Source of the DNA: Caldisphaera sp.
Lineage (GTDB): Archaea; Thermoproteota; Thermoprotei_A; Sulfolobales; Acidilobaceae
Length of the DNA: 64,000 bases
Direction: 5' to 3'
Assembly (NCBI RefSeq): GCF_023256325.1
Contig: NZ_JAGDXI010000016.1
Location: forward strand, 1 to 64,000
Below, in pieces: positions 2,416 to 49,133 of this stretch. The number at the start of each line of letters is the position of its first letter. Positions within the stretch are counted from its first letter, which is position 1. The notes under the pieces were generated by a model, which searched no databases, had not been told where the DNA came from, and saw only the letters and a program-made list of their open reading frames with translations. The position numbers were made by a program, and so were the translations under genes.

Positions 2416-2891
2416 TGAAAATAGTTGAGCCAAGCGAATCTCAATTAGAAACTATTAAAGCAATATTATCTTATCAATTTGATTCTAGAGTTGCCGATGC
2501 TTTTATAAAAAAGCCCTTAAAGATTTCCATGAGATTAGGTAAGATAAGGTATGTTTATTTAGAGGAAAAAAGAATAATGACTTTACGGCCTACTGATTTC
2601 GGTTTTACATTAGATATAGAATCAGGAAAAATAGTATTGGAAAACTCAGAATATCCTAAATATAGAGTAGTTGTAAAAGAAGGAGTAAATTATTTAGGAG
2701 ATGTTATGGGAATAGATGTAATAGATGCTGATCCATCAATAAAGCCTGGAGATGAGGTTGTGATAATAAATAATAAGGGGGAAATAGTAGGTATAGGAAA
2801 GGCTAGGGTGCCTGGGTTTATGATGAAGTCTATAGGAAAAGGAGAAGCTGTTAGAATAAGAAAGGTGTTAAAAAATGGGCAGAAAGGTTGA
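2412..2891 (+). CDS. PUA-domain RNA-binding protein, probable archaeosine/TGT partner
   Basis: A 159-residue soluble protein whose C-terminal half is a PUA domain (GDEVVIINNKGEIVGIGKA near residues 117-135, then a GKGEAVRIRKV tail). The N-terminal part resembles the domain that precedes PUA in archaeosine transglycosylases. PUA domains bind structured RNA such as the tRNA acceptor arm. The tgtA gene in this window (22327) ends before the PUA domain that many archaeal TgtA proteins carry, so this may be the detached PUA subunit; that is my inference. It overlaps the YrdC gene by 4 bp and the PAC2 gene by 17 bp. Confidence 0.8.
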   Translation: MMKIVEPSESQLETIKAILSYQFDSRVADAFIKKPLKISMRLGKIRYVYLEEKRIMTLRPTDFGFTLDIESGKIVLENSEYPKYRVVVKEGVNYLGDVMGIDVIDADPSIKPGDEVVIINNKGEIVGIGKARVPGFMMKSIGKGEAVRIRKVLKNGQKG

Positions 2892-3606
2892 AATAATTTT
2901 AAATGTAGGAGAAGATGTTTTTAGAGATAACGTAATAATAACTGGCTTTCCTGGATTTGGAAGAGTAGGGTATACTGTACCAAAATATCTATCAGTTGCT
3001 TTGCAAATGAAAAAAGTAGGATATATTATGACCGAAAGAATGCCTTCGGTTATTTTAGTTGAAGACGATGGTATAGGACTTCCTTTTGAAATATACCAAA
3101 ACAACAATATAACAGTTTTAATGAACAGGGCCGTTCCTGAAATAATAGATCAAAATGCGTTTAGTGAAAAAATTTCGAGTTGGATCAAGCAAATGGGATT
3201 TAAATATGCTGTATTGGTTGGAGGGCTTAGCAGGGAGTTTATGAACGAAAATGAAACTTACGGATATAGGTGGATTAGCAATACTTCTTATAATGGACCT
3301 TCCTTAGAAGCCCCTAAAATGGAAAAAGGTCTAGGCGTTGTGGGTCCTCTTGCGTTGTTTTACATTTATTTGGAAAAATTGAAAATACCAACGGCCATGG
3401 TTTTACCATATTCAATAGTCGAAGGTGTAGATTACGATGCAGCTTTTGTTGGGGTGAAGGCAATATTAAAGAGCTTGCTAAAAATGGAAGCTGCTGTTCC
3501 AGAACTTGAACAACTAGCTGTTAAACAAAGAGAAGAAATTGATAAGATAGTAAAGATGCTTCAATCCGAGACTCAAAAAGAAGGACCTTCTAATATTTAT
3601 ATGTAA
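2875..3606 (+). CDS. PAC2 family protein (proteasome-assembly-chaperone-like)
   Basis: A 243-residue soluble protein of the PAC2 family (PF09754), which includes archaeal PbaA-type proteins related to eukaryotic proteasome assembly chaperones. The signature GFPGFGRVGYTVPKYL near residues 24-39 is clear, as are YAVLVGGLSREF near 111-122 and the glycine-rich segment before the C-terminal helix. The C-terminus (residues about 208-235) is a charged helix. A role in proteasome assembly is inferred from the family; proteasome subunit psmB is in the same window at 58857. It is the last gene of the yrdC-PUA-PAC2 run and ends 4 bases before a 22-bp palindrome. Confidence 0.85.
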   Translation: MGRKVEIILNVGEDVFRDNVIITGFPGFGRVGYTVPKYLSVALQMKKVGYIMTERMPSVILVEDDGIGLPFEIYQNNNITVLMNRAVPEIIDQNAFSEKISSWIKQMGFKYAVLVGGLSREFMNENETYGYRWISNTSYNGPSLEAPKMEKGLGVVGPLALFYIYLEKLKIPTAMVLPYSIVEGVDYDAAFVGVKAILKSLLKMEAAVPELEQLAVKQREEIDKIVKMLQSETQKEGPSNIYM

Positions 3607-3609
3607 TTT

Positions 3610-3631
3610 TTGTTAACTCCCCGGTTAACAA
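3610..3631. repeat. 22-bp palindrome, copy A (GTTAAC pair)
   Basis: Arms TTGTTAAC and GTTAACAA flank the spacer TCCCCG. It fills most of the gap between the convergent stops of the PAC2 gene (3606) and the frame-corrected encapsulin gene (3635). One of four near-identical copies in the window. The arms could form an 8-bp hairpin or act as a protein-binding palindrome. Confidence 0.85.
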
Positions 3632-3634
3632 TAA

Positions 3635-4706
3635 TTAATCTTGTTTGCTTATTAATGCTATGGATTCGGACATTTTTACTCTAATAGATAAGGTTTCCCA
3701 AATTTCAAATATATGGGACGAGCCCTGTAGTCCTATGTAATCAAGTTTATTGCTTGCTCCAAAAACTATATTTGCTATTCCTGTTGGAAGGTATAAGTAA
3801 AGCTTCTCCATATTTAATACCTTCAGAAACTACTATTTTATCTACTACCTTGCTAACCCTTGTTAGCTCATCAATTCCTGAAGGATCGACCACAGATGAT
3901 AAATATGCTCTATCAGAAGGTGAAATAACTAGGCTTAATTGAGATTTTGATGCAATATTGTTTACGGCTTTTGACATTAGAGCGGTAAAAGATCCTGGAG
4001 ATGACCAGTTACCTTGAATTTTAACTTTAGCTTGAGAAGATAGAGTATTAAATATTAAAGTATCTTCTTGTTTTGCTAATAATGTGGATGCCCAAATTAC
4101 AGAAGAAATAGGAGGTTTAGATAACATTCTTCTATAGTAATCGAGAATTTCTTGTTCTATGCTAAAATATGTGCTCAGTTTTTGCAAAGGAATTATATCG
4201 GAAGAAGATTTAATTATTTCTCCTTCCAAAAGCTTTTCTGATGGTACTGCTAATGTACCATCACCAAGGGTTAATGAGGTCATAAATGATCTAAGCTTTG
4301 CATTTTTTAATAAAGTTTCATTTATTGCAGACTTAATTTCATTAACTTCAGTATCATTAAGTGGGCCTAATGGATCAAGAGCCTTATTGTCTTTAGAATT
4401 TTTTTGCTCAGAATTTTCTAAAAGAGAAGAAACTTCCTTACCTCCTTTTTCAAGCTCTATAGCTTGCTTAGGATCAAGTCTTTTAAGCAATTCAAGGAAT
4501 TCGCCTAGATGCGTTTTTTCTTCATTAGCTATATCAACTAAAACCTTCTTAACAGATTCATCATTAGTATAACTGGCAAGCTGCATGTATAGGTTTATAG
4601 CATCAAGTTCAGCTATAGCACCTAGCCTAACAATTTCTGCAACTCTATCACCTTCTACTTTAACAAAAGGATCTAGTGGATTTTTTGATAACAAATTCAT
4701 CCCCAT
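3635..4706 (-). CDS. encapsulin shell protein fused to a ferritin-like domain; frameshifted near the C-terminus
   Basis: Forms a protein nanocompartment shell (HK97 fold) that stores or detoxifies iron. Residues about 20-90 form a ferritin-like helical pair with E33 and the EExxH ligands E62, E63 and H66. After a Ser/Lys-rich linker, residues about 130-306 match the shell domain. This fused layout is that of the Pyrococcus furiosus virus-like particle and its Sulfolobus counterpart. The uninterrupted frame stops at 3747 (319 residues). Skipping one T at 3788 gives 50 more residues, ending with IFEIWETLSIRVKMSESIAL, which fits the expected encapsulin C-terminal strand. The corrected length of 356 suits the family. 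The lesion may be a sequencing error, a mutation or a +1 shift at CCT-T. Confidence 0.85.
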
Positions 4707-4835: not shown

Positions 4836-6380
4836 ATGAATCAGCTTAATATAATGGGAAAGACTAAGCTCAGCTTAGATGATCCATTCTTTAATGATAT
4901 ATATGACGTAGAAGAAGGAATTCCTGTATTTAAATATTTTCTTAATGGAGAGTGGAAGAAAAGCAATGATAGAAGCAAAATAGTTTCACCAATAGATAAC
5001 AATGTAATAGCCTATATATCGAGGCCTGAATTAAGTGAAGTGGAAAAGGCAATAGAAAACATGTATTCAAAAGGTAAGTGGAAAATTAGAGATATGCCAG
5101 GAGACATTAGATTAAAAATAATTGAAAAGATTGCTGATATTTTAGAAAAACACCAAGATGTTGTAATAGATTCATTAGTAATAAATGCGGGCAAAACATA
5201 TAATTCAGCTAAAGGAGAAGTTCTAGCTACTATAGAAAGGCTAAGAAAGTCCCCATTAGATCTTAGGAAAATTGTTGGAGATCTAATACCAGGGGACTGG
5301 AGCTCAGAAGCATTAGAAACAGAGGCCCTAATTAGAAGAGAGCCTTATGGTATATCTCTTATAATAATTCCTTTCAACTACCCTTTGTTTGATAGTGCTA
5401 ATAAGATAACCTATACAATATTACCAGGGAATGCAATAATTTTAAAGCCTCCAAGTTCAGATCCGATTCCTTCTCTATTTTTATTAAAGATGGCGATAGA
5501 AGCAGGACTTCCAAAAGAAAGCATAGCTTTAATTACTTTGCCTGGGAAACATATGTCTAAGGTTGTTTCTAATAGCAAAATAGGTATAATTAACTTAACG
5601 GGCAGTACTGAGACTGGTATAGAGGTAATGAAAGAGGCTGGAATTAAACAATTTATAATGGAACTTGGAGGTGGAGATCCTGCTATTGTATTGGGAGATG
5701 CAGACATAAGTTGGGCTGCGAAAAGGATTTCATTGGCTATAACAAGTTATAGTGGACAAAGATGTGATTCTATTAAATTAATATTAGCTGAAGATAAAAT
5801 TTATGAACAGCTTAAAAATGAAATTGTTAATGAGCTCTCTAAGGTAAAGGTAGGAGATCCAAGAGATAAAGGTGTTGATATGGGACCCTTAATTGATAAA
5901 TCGAGTGCAGATCAATGGGAAGAAGGAGTGAAGGACGCTATAGCTAAAGGGTGTAAAATATTATTTGGAGGTAAGAGAATAAACGATACTTTTATTGAAC
6001 CAGCATTAATAGAATGCGATAAAGATAAAGTTAAAGAATTAGTTGCATATAAAGAGGAAATATTTTCATCTATAGCAATAATAACAAAGTTTAGTGATTT
6101 AAATCAGGCAATAGAGCTTTCAAACGATAGGAGATACGGCTTAGATGCATCAATTTTTGGTAATGATGTTAATAAAATAAGAAAATTAGTTAGATTACTT
6201 GAAGTTGGAGCTATATATATAAATGATATGCCAAAGCATGGAATTAATTACTACCCATTTGGAGGTAGGAAAGATTCTGGCATAGGAAGAGAGGGTATTG
6301 GGTATAGCATTGAGCAGGTAACTGCTATGAAATCGATAGTTTACAATTATAAAGGTAAAGGGGTTTGGGATTATATATAA
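4836..6380 (+). CDS. gapN: non-phosphorylating glyceraldehyde-3-phosphate dehydrogenase (ALDH family)
   Basis: Oxidises glyceraldehyde 3-phosphate directly to 3-phosphoglycerate with NAD(P)+, the one-way step of crenarchaeal glycolysis. The 514-residue ALDH fold is complete: N181 in IPFNYP, the catalytic Glu276 in MELGGGDP, and nucleophile C310 in SGQRCDS. The C-terminal FGGRKDSGIGREGIGYS block is typical of archaeal GapN. Other ALDH substrates cannot be fully excluded, but the overall pattern matches GapN best. The gene is divergent from encapsulin and has a purine-rich GAGGGG site about 10 bases before the ATG. It appears monocistronic. Confidence 0.87.
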   Translation: MNQLNIMGKTKLSLDDPFFNDIYDVEEGIPVFKYFLNGEWKKSNDRSKIVSPIDNNVIAYISRPELSEVEKAIENMYSKGKWKIRDMPGDIRLKIIEKIADILEKHQDVVIDSLVINAGKTYNSAKGEVLATIERLRKSPLDLRKIVGDLIPGDWSSEALETEALIRREPYGISLIIIPFNYPLFDSANKITYTILPGNAIILKPPSSDPIPSLFLLKMAIEAGLPKESIALITLPGKHMSKVVSNSKIGIINLTGSTETGIEVMKEAGIKQFIMELGGGDPAIVLGDADISWAAKRISLAITSYSGQRCDSIKLILAEDKIYEQLKNEIVNELSKVKVGDPRDKGVDMGPLIDKSSADQWEEGVKDAIAKGCKILFGGKRINDTFIEPALIECDKDKVKELVAYKEEIFSSIAIITKFSDLNQAIELSNDRRYGLDASIFGNDVNKIRKLVRLLEVGAIYINDMPKHGINYYPFGGRKDSGIGREGIGYSIEQVTAMKSIVYNYKGKGVWDYI

Positions 6381-6436
6381 AATTTTTTAATTTGATTTCG
6401 TGGAAATATTTAAATAAATTTTCAAATTAAAATTAA

Positions 6437-7621
6437 ATGGTGCAAAAAACGATCAAGGGTTGTAATAAATATAGCATAATCATAGGAGTTGTAATGTTAG
6501 CTATATATATCCTCTTGTTAAAATTTTTAAATTTATCAAATAGTTTCTCGTTTTTTAATGTAAATTTCATTATGTATTTAACCTTATTACCTATATTAAT
6601 AGCCATATTTTCAATTATATCAACTCTTTTAAGCAAAAGTTATTTAACAGGCATAGCATCATCAACGATACCTTTACTATTTATATCAAATTCTATTTCG
6701 GATAGTTTTTTAATATTATATTCTATATTTGGAATTTTTTCTTCATTTATATTTTACTTTTTTATAAAATCTAAGAACAAAATTTTTCTAGGAAAATTTG
6801 AAAATCCAATACCTTTAGCTATAGCAGCAGTTGCATTATCTTTAATATTAATAGTTAATTATTTCAATTATAGGTTTCTTTTAGCATATTTTTTAATCTC
6901 TTTAATAAGCAGTTTTTTATCTTCTACAGAACAAAAATTTTTTAGATCTTCCTTATTAGGCATATTATCCTCTTTAGGGCCAATAGGTTTCTTTATTATT
7001 TCATGGTATTTGGTTGAAAGGCCTATTTATATTAGAGATTGCAATGGTTTAGAATTGAGCAATAAAATATTAATGTCATCTATAGGTAATAGAGATCTTG
7101 CATGCGCTGAAGGAAAAGCAAAAATAAAGCTTGAAAGGCCTTTTATTTTATGGATATATGGTAAATACAACCCTGTTAAATTGAAAAATTATATTGAAAT
7201 AGGGATTAGTGAAAAACCAAGTTGCAAAGAATCAAATTGTATAGATTTAAGCGACAAAGATTTATATCATAGCATAAATTTCTTAAATAATTTAAGTAAT
7301 GAATTAAGAGGTGAAAAGGATTTATTAATAAAATTAAACATGGAGATGTTAAGCAATGCTGATCTAATAAATGTGTTAAAAAAGTTATCAAAAAGAATTA
7401 GCTTAGTTATTGAGATGAAAGACTTTATTGATAAAGATTTTATGCAGAAATTCAATGCTGCATCATCAGGTGTAGTTTTTTGCTGCGTAGAAGATCCTGA
7501 AAAATCTTTAAATATAGCAAAGGTGTTTTTTAGGTATCCTTACGAACTTGCTGAAATACTTAAGCAAAATGCCCTTGTATACCCATCTTGCGATAATGGA
7601 TTCTTAGTTTTAAGAATATGA
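6437..7621 (+). CDS. polytopic membrane protein with C-terminal soluble domain, unknown function
   Basis: I do not recognise this 394-residue protein. Residues 1-195 hold about six or seven hydrophobic segments, separated by very short loops. Residues about 196-394 form a soluble domain with alternating strands and helices and several Cys (CNG, ACAEG, SCKESNC, FCCVED, SCDNG), which could bind metal or form disulfides. There is no catalytic motif I can name. A TATA-like TTTAAATAAATT at about 6410-6420 is close to the ATG, suggesting a leaderless transcript. It is convergent with the Mo-oxidoreductase gene. The Cys pattern is the main clue for follow-up. Confidence 0.65.
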   Translation: MVQKTIKGCNKYSIIIGVVMLAIYILLLKFLNLSNSFSFFNVNFIMYLTLLPILIAIFSIISTLLSKSYLTGIASSTIPLLFISNSISDSFLILYSIFGIFSSFIFYFFIKSKNKIFLGKFENPIPLAIAAVALSLILIVNYFNYRFLLAYFLISLISSFLSSTEQKFFRSSLLGILSSLGPIGFFIISWYLVERPIYIRDCNGLELSNKILMSSIGNRDLACAEGKAKIKLERPFILWIYGKYNPVKLKNYIEIGISEKPSCKESNCIDLSDKDLYHSINFLNNLSNELRGEKDLLIKLNMEMLSNADLINVLKKLSKRISLVIEMKDFIDKDFMQKFNAASSGVVFCCVEDPEKSLNIAKVFFRYPYELAEILKQNALVYPSCDNGFLVLRI

Positions 7622-7710: not shown

Positions 7711-7732
7711 TTGTTAACCGGGGGGTTAACAA
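7711..7732. repeat. 22-bp palindrome, copy B (GTTAAC pair)
   Basis: Arms TTGTTAAC and GTTAACAA flank CGGGGG. It is the exact reverse complement of copy C at 32906. It lies in the 113-bp convergent gap between the membrane-protein gene (ends 7621) and the Mo-oxidoreductase gene, only 2 bases from the latter's stop at 7735. Confidence 0.85.
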
Positions 7733-16362: not shown

Positions 16363-18012
16363 ATGGGCTTTAAATATTTTAAAGCTTTACTTTATAGTAT
16401 AAAATATAGAGAAAGTGGGGTAGCCTCTTTGGAAATAAACAACAAAGAAGAAAGCAAGAAAATTAATGTGTTAGAAGAATATGGTGTTGTAGGCTACCCC
16501 AAAGTATTGATAAGGATTTATGAAGATCAGGAAAAAAGAAGGCTTTACGATATAAAAGAACCGATATTAGATGATATTTCCATAAAAGTTTATAAAGAAT
16601 TAATGGATATTGTATCAAAAGATATAGATTTATCTAAAAAACTAGCAGAAAAAAAGATTTTGGAAGAGGGTATAGATATTTTAATTCCAATAGCAAAAAA
16701 TTTAGCATCTAAAAAATTAATAAAAGGTTTTCATATAAGAAGAGATGGAAAATTTAAGGAGCTGCAAAAAAGAATAGATGATATTGCTCTTGTTTCTTCT
16801 TATTATGTTTCAAGAGATTTAATAGGCTATGGAAAGATTGAGCCGCTAATAAGAGATCCATATATAGAAGACATATCATGCAACGGTCTTCACATACCAG
16901 TATTTGTTTATCACACAAAATACGAATGGCTTACTACAAACGTTGTCTTTAATACCCAAGAAGAGCTTGATTCTATTATAGCTAAGCTAGGGGTTAGAAG
17001 TAGCAGGGAGCCTTCTATTGCTACCCCAATAATAGAAGGCCTATTAAAGCCTGAAGGGTATAGGGTAAACATTGTTTTGGATACAGTATCTAGAAGAGGA
17101 CATAGCTTTACTATAAGGAAGTTTAGGGCAGAACCATTTACATTAATAGAACTTATGAGGTCTAAGACTTTAGATCCACTTGTTGCAGCATTTATTTGGC
17201 TTTCTGTAGAAAACAAACAAGGAATAATATTTTATGGTCCTACTGGAAGCGGTAAAACGACTCTATTAAATGCATCTACAACTCTTTTGCCAACTGAATA
17301 TAAAATAGTAACTGTGGAAGATACTCCTGAAGTTTATTTACCATTTCATGAAAACTGGGGCGCAATGATGACTAGATTATCAACGGATCCAAGAGTTGAA
17401 AATGTAACAATGCAGTCCCAAATAGAGGCTGCATTGAGGCAGAGACCTGATGTTATAATAGTTGGAGAAATAAGATCTAGAGAGGCATATGCATTTTTCC
17501 AAGCATTAGCAACTGGCCATGGAGGTTTAACAACAGTTCACGCAGAGTCTGCTGATGTTTTAATCAAGAGGCTTGTTTCACCTCCAATGAACGTGCCTGC
17601 TAGCCTTATATCGGCGGCCAGGCTGTTTGTTAATATTTTGAGAATAGAAGAAGGAGGCAATGTGTTTAGAAAAGTTATGAGAATAGATGAGTCTTGGGGA
17701 TATGATGTTGAAACTAATAGTGTGTTGTTAAAAGAAAAAATATTATGGGATAGATATAAAAATTCTTGGTATATGAAAGGGAAGGAAAGCTATTTGTTAA
17801 AATCAGTTGCTTCTCTCAATTTAATAAGCTATGAGGAAGCATTTAATGATTTAAAAATGAGAGCAACAATATTAAATTGGCTTATGAATAAAAATGCTGA
17901 TAATGCAATGCTTAATGAGGTTCTTAGATTATATAGAAGAAATCCTATAGATTTATATAATAAGGCTAAGGCAGAAACAGGAGAATTTAACATAGATATA
18001 AGGGGTGATTAA
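16363..18012 (+). CDS. type IV pilus assembly ATPase (GspE/TadA family)
   Basis: The cytoplasmic motor that drives pilin assembly. Walker A GPTGSGKT is at residues 292-299, the Asp-box region TVEDTPEVYLP follows near 318, the His-box and Walker B RQRPDVIIVGEIRSREA near 363-379, and GHGGLTTVHAES near 386-397. The N-terminal 200 residues match the archaeal secretion ATPase N1/N2 domains. At 549 residues it is normal for archaeal UpsE/AapE/FlaI-type ATPases. It opens a five-gene operon with two membrane platform proteins and two pilins, and overlaps the next gene by 8 bp. The lack of other archaellum genes argues against ArlI. Confidence 0.92.
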   Translation: MGFKYFKALLYSIKYRESGVASLEINNKEESKKINVLEEYGVVGYPKVLIRIYEDQEKRRLYDIKEPILDDISIKVYKELMDIVSKDIDLSKKLAEKKILEEGIDILIPIAKNLASKKLIKGFHIRRDGKFKELQKRIDDIALVSSYYVSRDLIGYGKIEPLIRDPYIEDISCNGLHIPVFVYHTKYEWLTTNVVFNTQEELDSIIAKLGVRSSREPSIATPIIEGLLKPEGYRVNIVLDTVSRRGHSFTIRKFRAEPFTLIELMRSKTLDPLVAAFIWLSVENKQGIIFYGPTGSGKTTLLNASTTLLPTEYKIVTVEDTPEVYLPFHENWGAMMTRLSTDPRVENVTMQSQIEAALRQRPDVIIVGEIRSREAYAFFQALATGHGGLTTVHAESADVLIKRLVSPPMNVPASLISAARLFVNILRIEEGGNVFRKVMRIDESWGYDVETNSVLLKEKILWDRYKNSWYMKGKESYLLKSVASLNLISYEEAFNDLKMRATILNWLMNKNADNAMLNEVLRLYRRNPIDLYNKAKAETGEFNIDIRGD

Positions 18013-32616: not shown

Positions 32617-33084
32617 TTGGGAGAAGAAATGGAGGTAAAAATAATTCCGGTAATCCATAATATTAGCAGTGTGCAAAAACTTATAGATATGGCTAGGCTT
32701 AGCTTTGGTTTTGGTTACAAAAACATAATCATAACAAAAGCATACGGAGGTGCAGCTCAAAACGGTGTTGCTGAGGTATTTAAGATATCCTTAAAAGAAA
32801 ACAAAGGGGTTGTTGTTTTACCTGATTTAAAAGATGTAATAGATCTCTACAATCCAAAAAAGGTAATATTAATAGATAAAGAGAATTCAAAAGACGAGAT
32901 AGATATTGTTAACCCCCCGGTTAACAATGATCTAATGCTTGTATTTAATGGATCGGATTCATCATTTTCTCCTTCTGAAATTTCTCTTGGAGAGCCGTAT
33001 TATATAAAAGGGGTTAAAGGTAAGATTGGTAGTGTTGCCGAAGCTGCCCTCTTGCTTTATGCGTATTCAAAATTCTTAGCTTAA
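32617..33084 (+). CDS. SPOUT-like archaeal protein (often annotated RecB-family nuclease)
   Basis: A 155-residue conserved crenarchaeal protein. The C-terminal ISLGEPYYIKGVKGKIGSVAEAALLLYAY resembles the knotted SAM-binding end of SPOUT methyltransferases, and homologues are labelled RecB-family nuclease or SpoU-like in databases; I recall that labelling and have not checked it. No nuclease motif is visible. The 22-bp palindrome copy C lies inside the gene and encodes the segment DIVNPPVNND (near residues 96-105), in a loop between two conserved blocks. The likely start is ATG 32617 or ATG 32629. Confidence 0.75.
   Translation: MGEEMEVKIIPVIHNISSVQKLIDMARLSFGFGYKNIIITKAYGGAAQNGVAEVFKISLKENKGVVVLPDLKDVIDLYNPKKVILIDKENSKDEIDIVNPPVNNDLMLVFNGSDSSFSPSEISLGEPYYIKGVKGKIGSVAEAALLLYAYSKFLA
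32906..32927. repeat. 22-bp palindrome, copy C (GTTAAC pair), inside a coding sequence
   Basis: Arms TTGTTAAC and GTTAACAA flank CCCCCG. It is the exact reverse complement of copy B. It is read in frame inside the SPOUT-like gene as IVNPPVN. The only intragenic copy of the four. Confidence 0.85.
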
Positions 33085-49111: not shown

Positions 49112-49133
49112 TTGTTAACTGGGGGGTTAACAA
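49112..49133. repeat. 22-bp palindrome, copy D (GTTAAC pair)
   Basis: Arms TTGTTAAC and GTTAACAA flank TGGGGG. It lies in the divergent gap between the DUF1122 gene and thermosome beta, about 200 bases upstream of the thsB promoter. The dyad extends to AATTG and CAATT at the ends. Confidence 0.85.

Follow-up and report, generated by a model that had tools for sequence, protein, structure and literature searches.

A probable recent frame-breaking indel near the 3' end of a ferritin-fused encapsulin gene in Caldisphaera sp.

Encapsulins of the ferritin-like protein (FLP) fusion type carry an N-terminal ferritin-like domain, which oxidises iron, and an HK97-type shell domain, which forms a cage around it. 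These fusions have been found only in Archaea, mostly in Crenarchaeota (PMC8346489), and share the motif DXXXEEXA(T)H in their fused FLP domain (PMC11202242). A described representative, the Pyrococcus furiosus virus-like particle (PDB 2e0z, 345 aa; ferritin domain 5n5e), has the same domain order as a minus-strand gene in the 64,000-nt stretch of Caldisphaera sp. DNA analyzed here (contig NZ_JAGDXI010000016.1, positions 1 to 64,000; hereafter the window), and the form DxxxEExTH is common to 2e0z and the DIANEEKTH of this gene. Residues 14-352 of the read-through protein align to residues 15-344 of 2e0z (E 5.5e-31), but the sequence has diverged and the C-terminal 50 residues lie in another frame here. 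The FLP-fusion encapsulin of the same-genus genome G004 (L010/L068) is 59% identical over residues 5-307 and 56% identical over the 50-aa tail (E 1e-17), and it occupies the same locus beside a PAC2-family gene; it differs in being encoded in one open frame of 357 aa.

The gene in the window was assigned to family 1 encapsulins through its frame-0 part (3750..4706, minus strand, 319 codons, with Pfam and NCBIfam matches). This part contains an N-terminal ferritin-like (FLP/EncFtn) domain at about residues 1-108 and most of an HK97-type shell domain at about residues 115-306. The shell domain matched Pfam Linocin_M18 over residues 115-309 (E 1.4e-11), and an EncFtn-like/rubrerythrin-type ferritin-like domain matched Pfam EncFtn-like over residues 25-87 (E 1.7e-7), both above the gathering score; the NCBIfam matches EncB_fam (1.3e-21) and encap_f1 (2.3e-8) scored under their curated cut-offs. 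The diiron motif DIANEEKTH lies in the fused ferritin-like domain and fits the archaeal fusion-FLP motif. By these matches the gene is an archaeal FLP-fusion family 1 encapsulin, a known kind.

Frame 0 is open from 4706 to 3750 and then ends at an early TAA stop codon (3747..3749, minus strand), and the 13 codons ahead of this stop encode a tail without homology, SNRNSKYSFWSKQ. When T3788 is left out (minus strand CTT ATA CCT T CC), reading goes on in the +1 frame as PTGIANIVFGASNKLDYIGLQGSSHIFEIWETLSIRVKMSESIALISKQD, which comprises the 50 codons of the shell C-terminus and a stop at 3637-3635 (3635..3787, minus strand, identified by homology to relatives) and brings the protein to 356 aa in total. 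The third frame across this stretch is full of stops. No single open frame holds the complete shell domain, whose last 50 residues sit in the +1 frame, and on this comparison with its relatives the gene is a disrupted member of the family 1 FLP-fusion encapsulins. Frame 0 and the +1 frame are both open over 3829-3750 (80 nt), so that the sequence alone cannot fix the break at 3788.

To the tail alone, blastp returned E-values of 1e-17 to 3e-5 in 13 of 14 relatives, and the score against a family profile of these 14 rose from 338.7 to 388.7 bits once the tail was added. The similarity of the tail extends to the C-terminus of 2e0z, where it reaches residue 344 of 345. Because the tail is homologous to those of relatives, the frame change is not due to chance. 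These results bear out much of a preliminary description of this DNA, which had recognized an encapsulin, had placed the stop at 3747 behind a non-matching tail, had recovered 50 C-terminal residues in the +1 frame (356 in total on skipping T3788), and had judged the length close to that of known fused encapsulins; its coordinates proved correct. The C-terminus is unbroken and in frame in all 14 aligned homologs, including the next-nearest proteins after that of G004 (from genomes G022, G030 and G013), and none of the 14 shares the frame break, which is thus confined to this genome among those read.

To characterize the lesion, every possible junction was scored against the profile built from the 14 relatives. 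Restoration (or re-reading) of two nucleotides, with the junction at 3785-3773, gave up to 395.8 bits, and skipping of one base gave at most 390.2 bits, with the value stated above for the complete protein applying at T3788. From the ALLI-type strand to the [DE]-[ILV]-x-x-G motif there are seven residues in all 14 homologs (for homolog L024, which the search pattern missed, the loop length was read by eye from the printed sequence) and six in the reading that skips T3788, and the DNA alignment to the G004 gene placed a 2-nt gap between 3784 and 3783. Junction scores, DNA alignment and loop length together delimit a frame-break zone at 3773..3788 (minus strand). Since the loop is seven residues long in every homolog and six when T is skipped, a net loss of two nucleotides is the simplest event; a single inserted T would need a further in-frame codon loss. 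The simplest account of the break is thus that a net 2 nt were lost near 3784/3783, a reading that differences of a few bits favor and do not prove. The preliminary description had listed mutation, error and a ribosomal shift as possible causes, which is a sensible list, but the specific forms it gave them found little support. We rejected its single extra T at 3788 as the simplest lesion, since without that base the loop has one residue fewer than in any of the 14 homologs; its proposed ribosomal shift at CCT-T is considered below.

Encapsulin genes are patchily distributed among the relatives. Of 60 relatives, 27 had no match at all, and many others matched in the ferritin-like domain only. 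Of the four further genomes in the genus, G004 alone gave a strong full-length match. In the single-contig genome G003, about 340 bp separate the neighboring genes at the same locus, and no encapsulin remnant was found there. The absence of the gene from many relatives and from the G003 locus shows that it is easily lost. The convergent neighbor, a PAC2-family gene (2875..3606, plus strand), has an open frame in each of the genus's five genomes and is 86-87% identical in the two nearest. A search of genome contigs returned distant matches to the ferritin-like domain only, and two exact probes found no independent copies of the same species' locus in viral contigs. A further same-genus genome, G002, encodes a stand-alone 93-aa encapsulin-type ferritin-like protein (L071 3442-3723), which adjoins another ferritin-like gene; no shell gene was seen around it in a 7-kb stretch.

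The best reading of this locus, and a somewhat probable one drawn from one assembly of the species, is in our view that a dispensable encapsulin gene has recently lost its function through an indel. A recent frame-breaking indel, most simply the 2-nt loss described above, would end translation at 3747 and remove the last 50 shell residues, and a normal shell could probably not be built from the truncated product, as far as assembly can be predicted. If the DNA has been read correctly, the gene would be in an early stage of loss of function in a lineage that often does without it. The age of the break was approached through comparison with the same-genus gene. The pN/pS of the tail was 0.40, and that of upstream stretches of equal length had a median of 0.42; differences by codon position were also distributed alike in tail and upstream sequence (0.29/0.20/0.55 and 0.33/0.19/0.51, respectively). 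Synonymous sites are nearly saturated, so these values exclude only an old break. An old pseudogene was rejected on this basis, the tail being without decay, and an undecayed tail would be equally expected were the full protein still made.

The main rival to mutation is a sequencing or assembly error, in which the gene would be whole in the organism and broken only in the assembled contig. The tail and the rest of the gene are equally conserved, the break is common to no relative, and the source genome (G000) is a 1.52-Mb draft of 50 contigs in which the site lies 3.6 kb from a contig end, all of which would fit such an error. We therefore regard it as a possibility of some weight, although a minority one, because other observations speak against it. 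Homopolymers are the usual place for read errors, and the loop length calls for two missing bases at a gap with no homopolymer longer than two, which would be an unusual read error. In a frameshift survey, 298 kb of G000 (the window, most of contig C23 and all of contig C8) were compared with the matching stretches of G003, which placed about 199 kb of G000 under strong protein matches; the survey overlooks shifted tails that are very short and genes that have no relative, and the encapsulin break was detected via G004, since the gene is absent from G003. Six other places in G000 were flagged, all of them antisense shadow ORFs lying across ordinary genes of the opposite strand, and no other credible frameshift was found in the about 199 kb of comparable coding sequence. 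Indel errors thus appear rare in this assembly, and general poor assembly quality was rejected as an explanation. The rarity of frame errors, the accessory nature of the gene and the lack of a long homopolymer at the gap favor a real mutation.

Two further explanations would leave the gene functional. In one, a programmed or tolerated +1 (equivalently -2) shift within 3829-3750 would yield the full-length shell, perhaps together with a short form; the apparent constraint on the tail, the same as on the rest of the gene, and the 80 nt over which two frames are open together would suit it, as would the codon that follows CCT, TCC, which is little used for serine here (3.6 per thousand). We hold it to be unlikely, since the break is conserved in no relative, all 14 aligned homologs being in frame, and a +1 shift would yield a product that lacks one residue in a loop whose length is fixed. 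CCT-T was also rejected as a special slip site on grounds of frequency: across the 58 coding sequences of the window, CCT-T was found in frame 88 times and CCT-TCC 4 times, one CCT-TCC lying in the intact PAC2-family neighbor, so that a shift-prone site is not avoided in ordinary genes. Programmed +1 frameshifting does not require a stimulatory downstream structure; within the 96 nt downstream, no RNA hairpin folded better than shuffled sequences (z -0.65, in a pseudoknot-free model), and an Rfam scan of the window returned only a tRNA. The commonness of CCT-T in intact genes, the single frame of the relatives and the lack of a stimulator structure in these scans speak against the ribosomal shift at CCT-T of the preliminary description. 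Precedent in Archaea consists of one proven cellular case, fucA1 of Saccharolobus solfataricus, which likewise comes from a thermoacidophilic archaeon and spans two overlapping frames but undergoes a -1 shift; for +1 shifts, the review of archaeal recoding gives no cellular case and one suggested in a haloarchaeal virus (PMC8211752). The features of fucA1, namely an A-AAA-AAT slippery heptamer, tandem rare codons and a putative stem-loop (PMC8211752), were not seen in the encapsulin gene. The narrower proposal that a species-specific programmed +1 (or -2) shift within the same 80 nt yields a mix of full-length and C-terminally truncated subunits is a shade less likely still; if true, no earlier +1 recoding event in a cellular archaeal gene would be known, as judged from that review, and the evidence does not point to ribosomal repair of the break.

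In the other explanation, which we find the hardest of all to credit, the gene is split, and the 319-aa product would associate with a separately started 58-aa piece to rebuild the shell fold. A 58-codon +1-frame ORF (3635..3811, minus strand), which could supply such a C-terminal piece, begins at an in-frame ATG at 3811, 24 nt ahead of the homologous tail and preceded by a partial Shine-Dalgarno-like sequence (GAAGGT). This ATG and its surroundings belong to the older coding sequence, so coincidence suffices to explain them, and the arrangement occurs in no relative.

The break most likely reflects an ordinary mutation of recent date, in a gene often missing from relatives, and no novel mode of decoding. 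If the break is real, an archaeal encapsulin gene has been caught at the start of its loss, and life with and without an iron-storing shell could be compared, on a small natural scale, between one sister species that has no such gene at this locus and another in which it has been retained.

Several other features of the region were recorded. An aldehyde dehydrogenase and membrane-protein pair beside the encapsulin gene (window 4836-7621) is inverted relative to G004 and G003. At window 16363-18012 (plus strand), a T2SSE-type secretion/pilus ATPase of 549 aa is encoded in one open frame; its G003 counterpart appears in two frames, with the first part 66% and the rest 86% identical, which indicates a frame break or an altered N-terminus in G003. 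The palindromic element ATTGTTAAC-Y(CCCC or GGGG)R-GTTAACAAT, slightly variable between copies, is dispersed in the window (3612-3629, 7713-7730, 32908-32925 and 49114-49131), mostly between genes. It is also present at several intergenic sites of G003 and G004, one of them the PAC2-side locus of G003 that has no encapsulin, and could represent either a terminator hairpin or a mobile repeat of small size.
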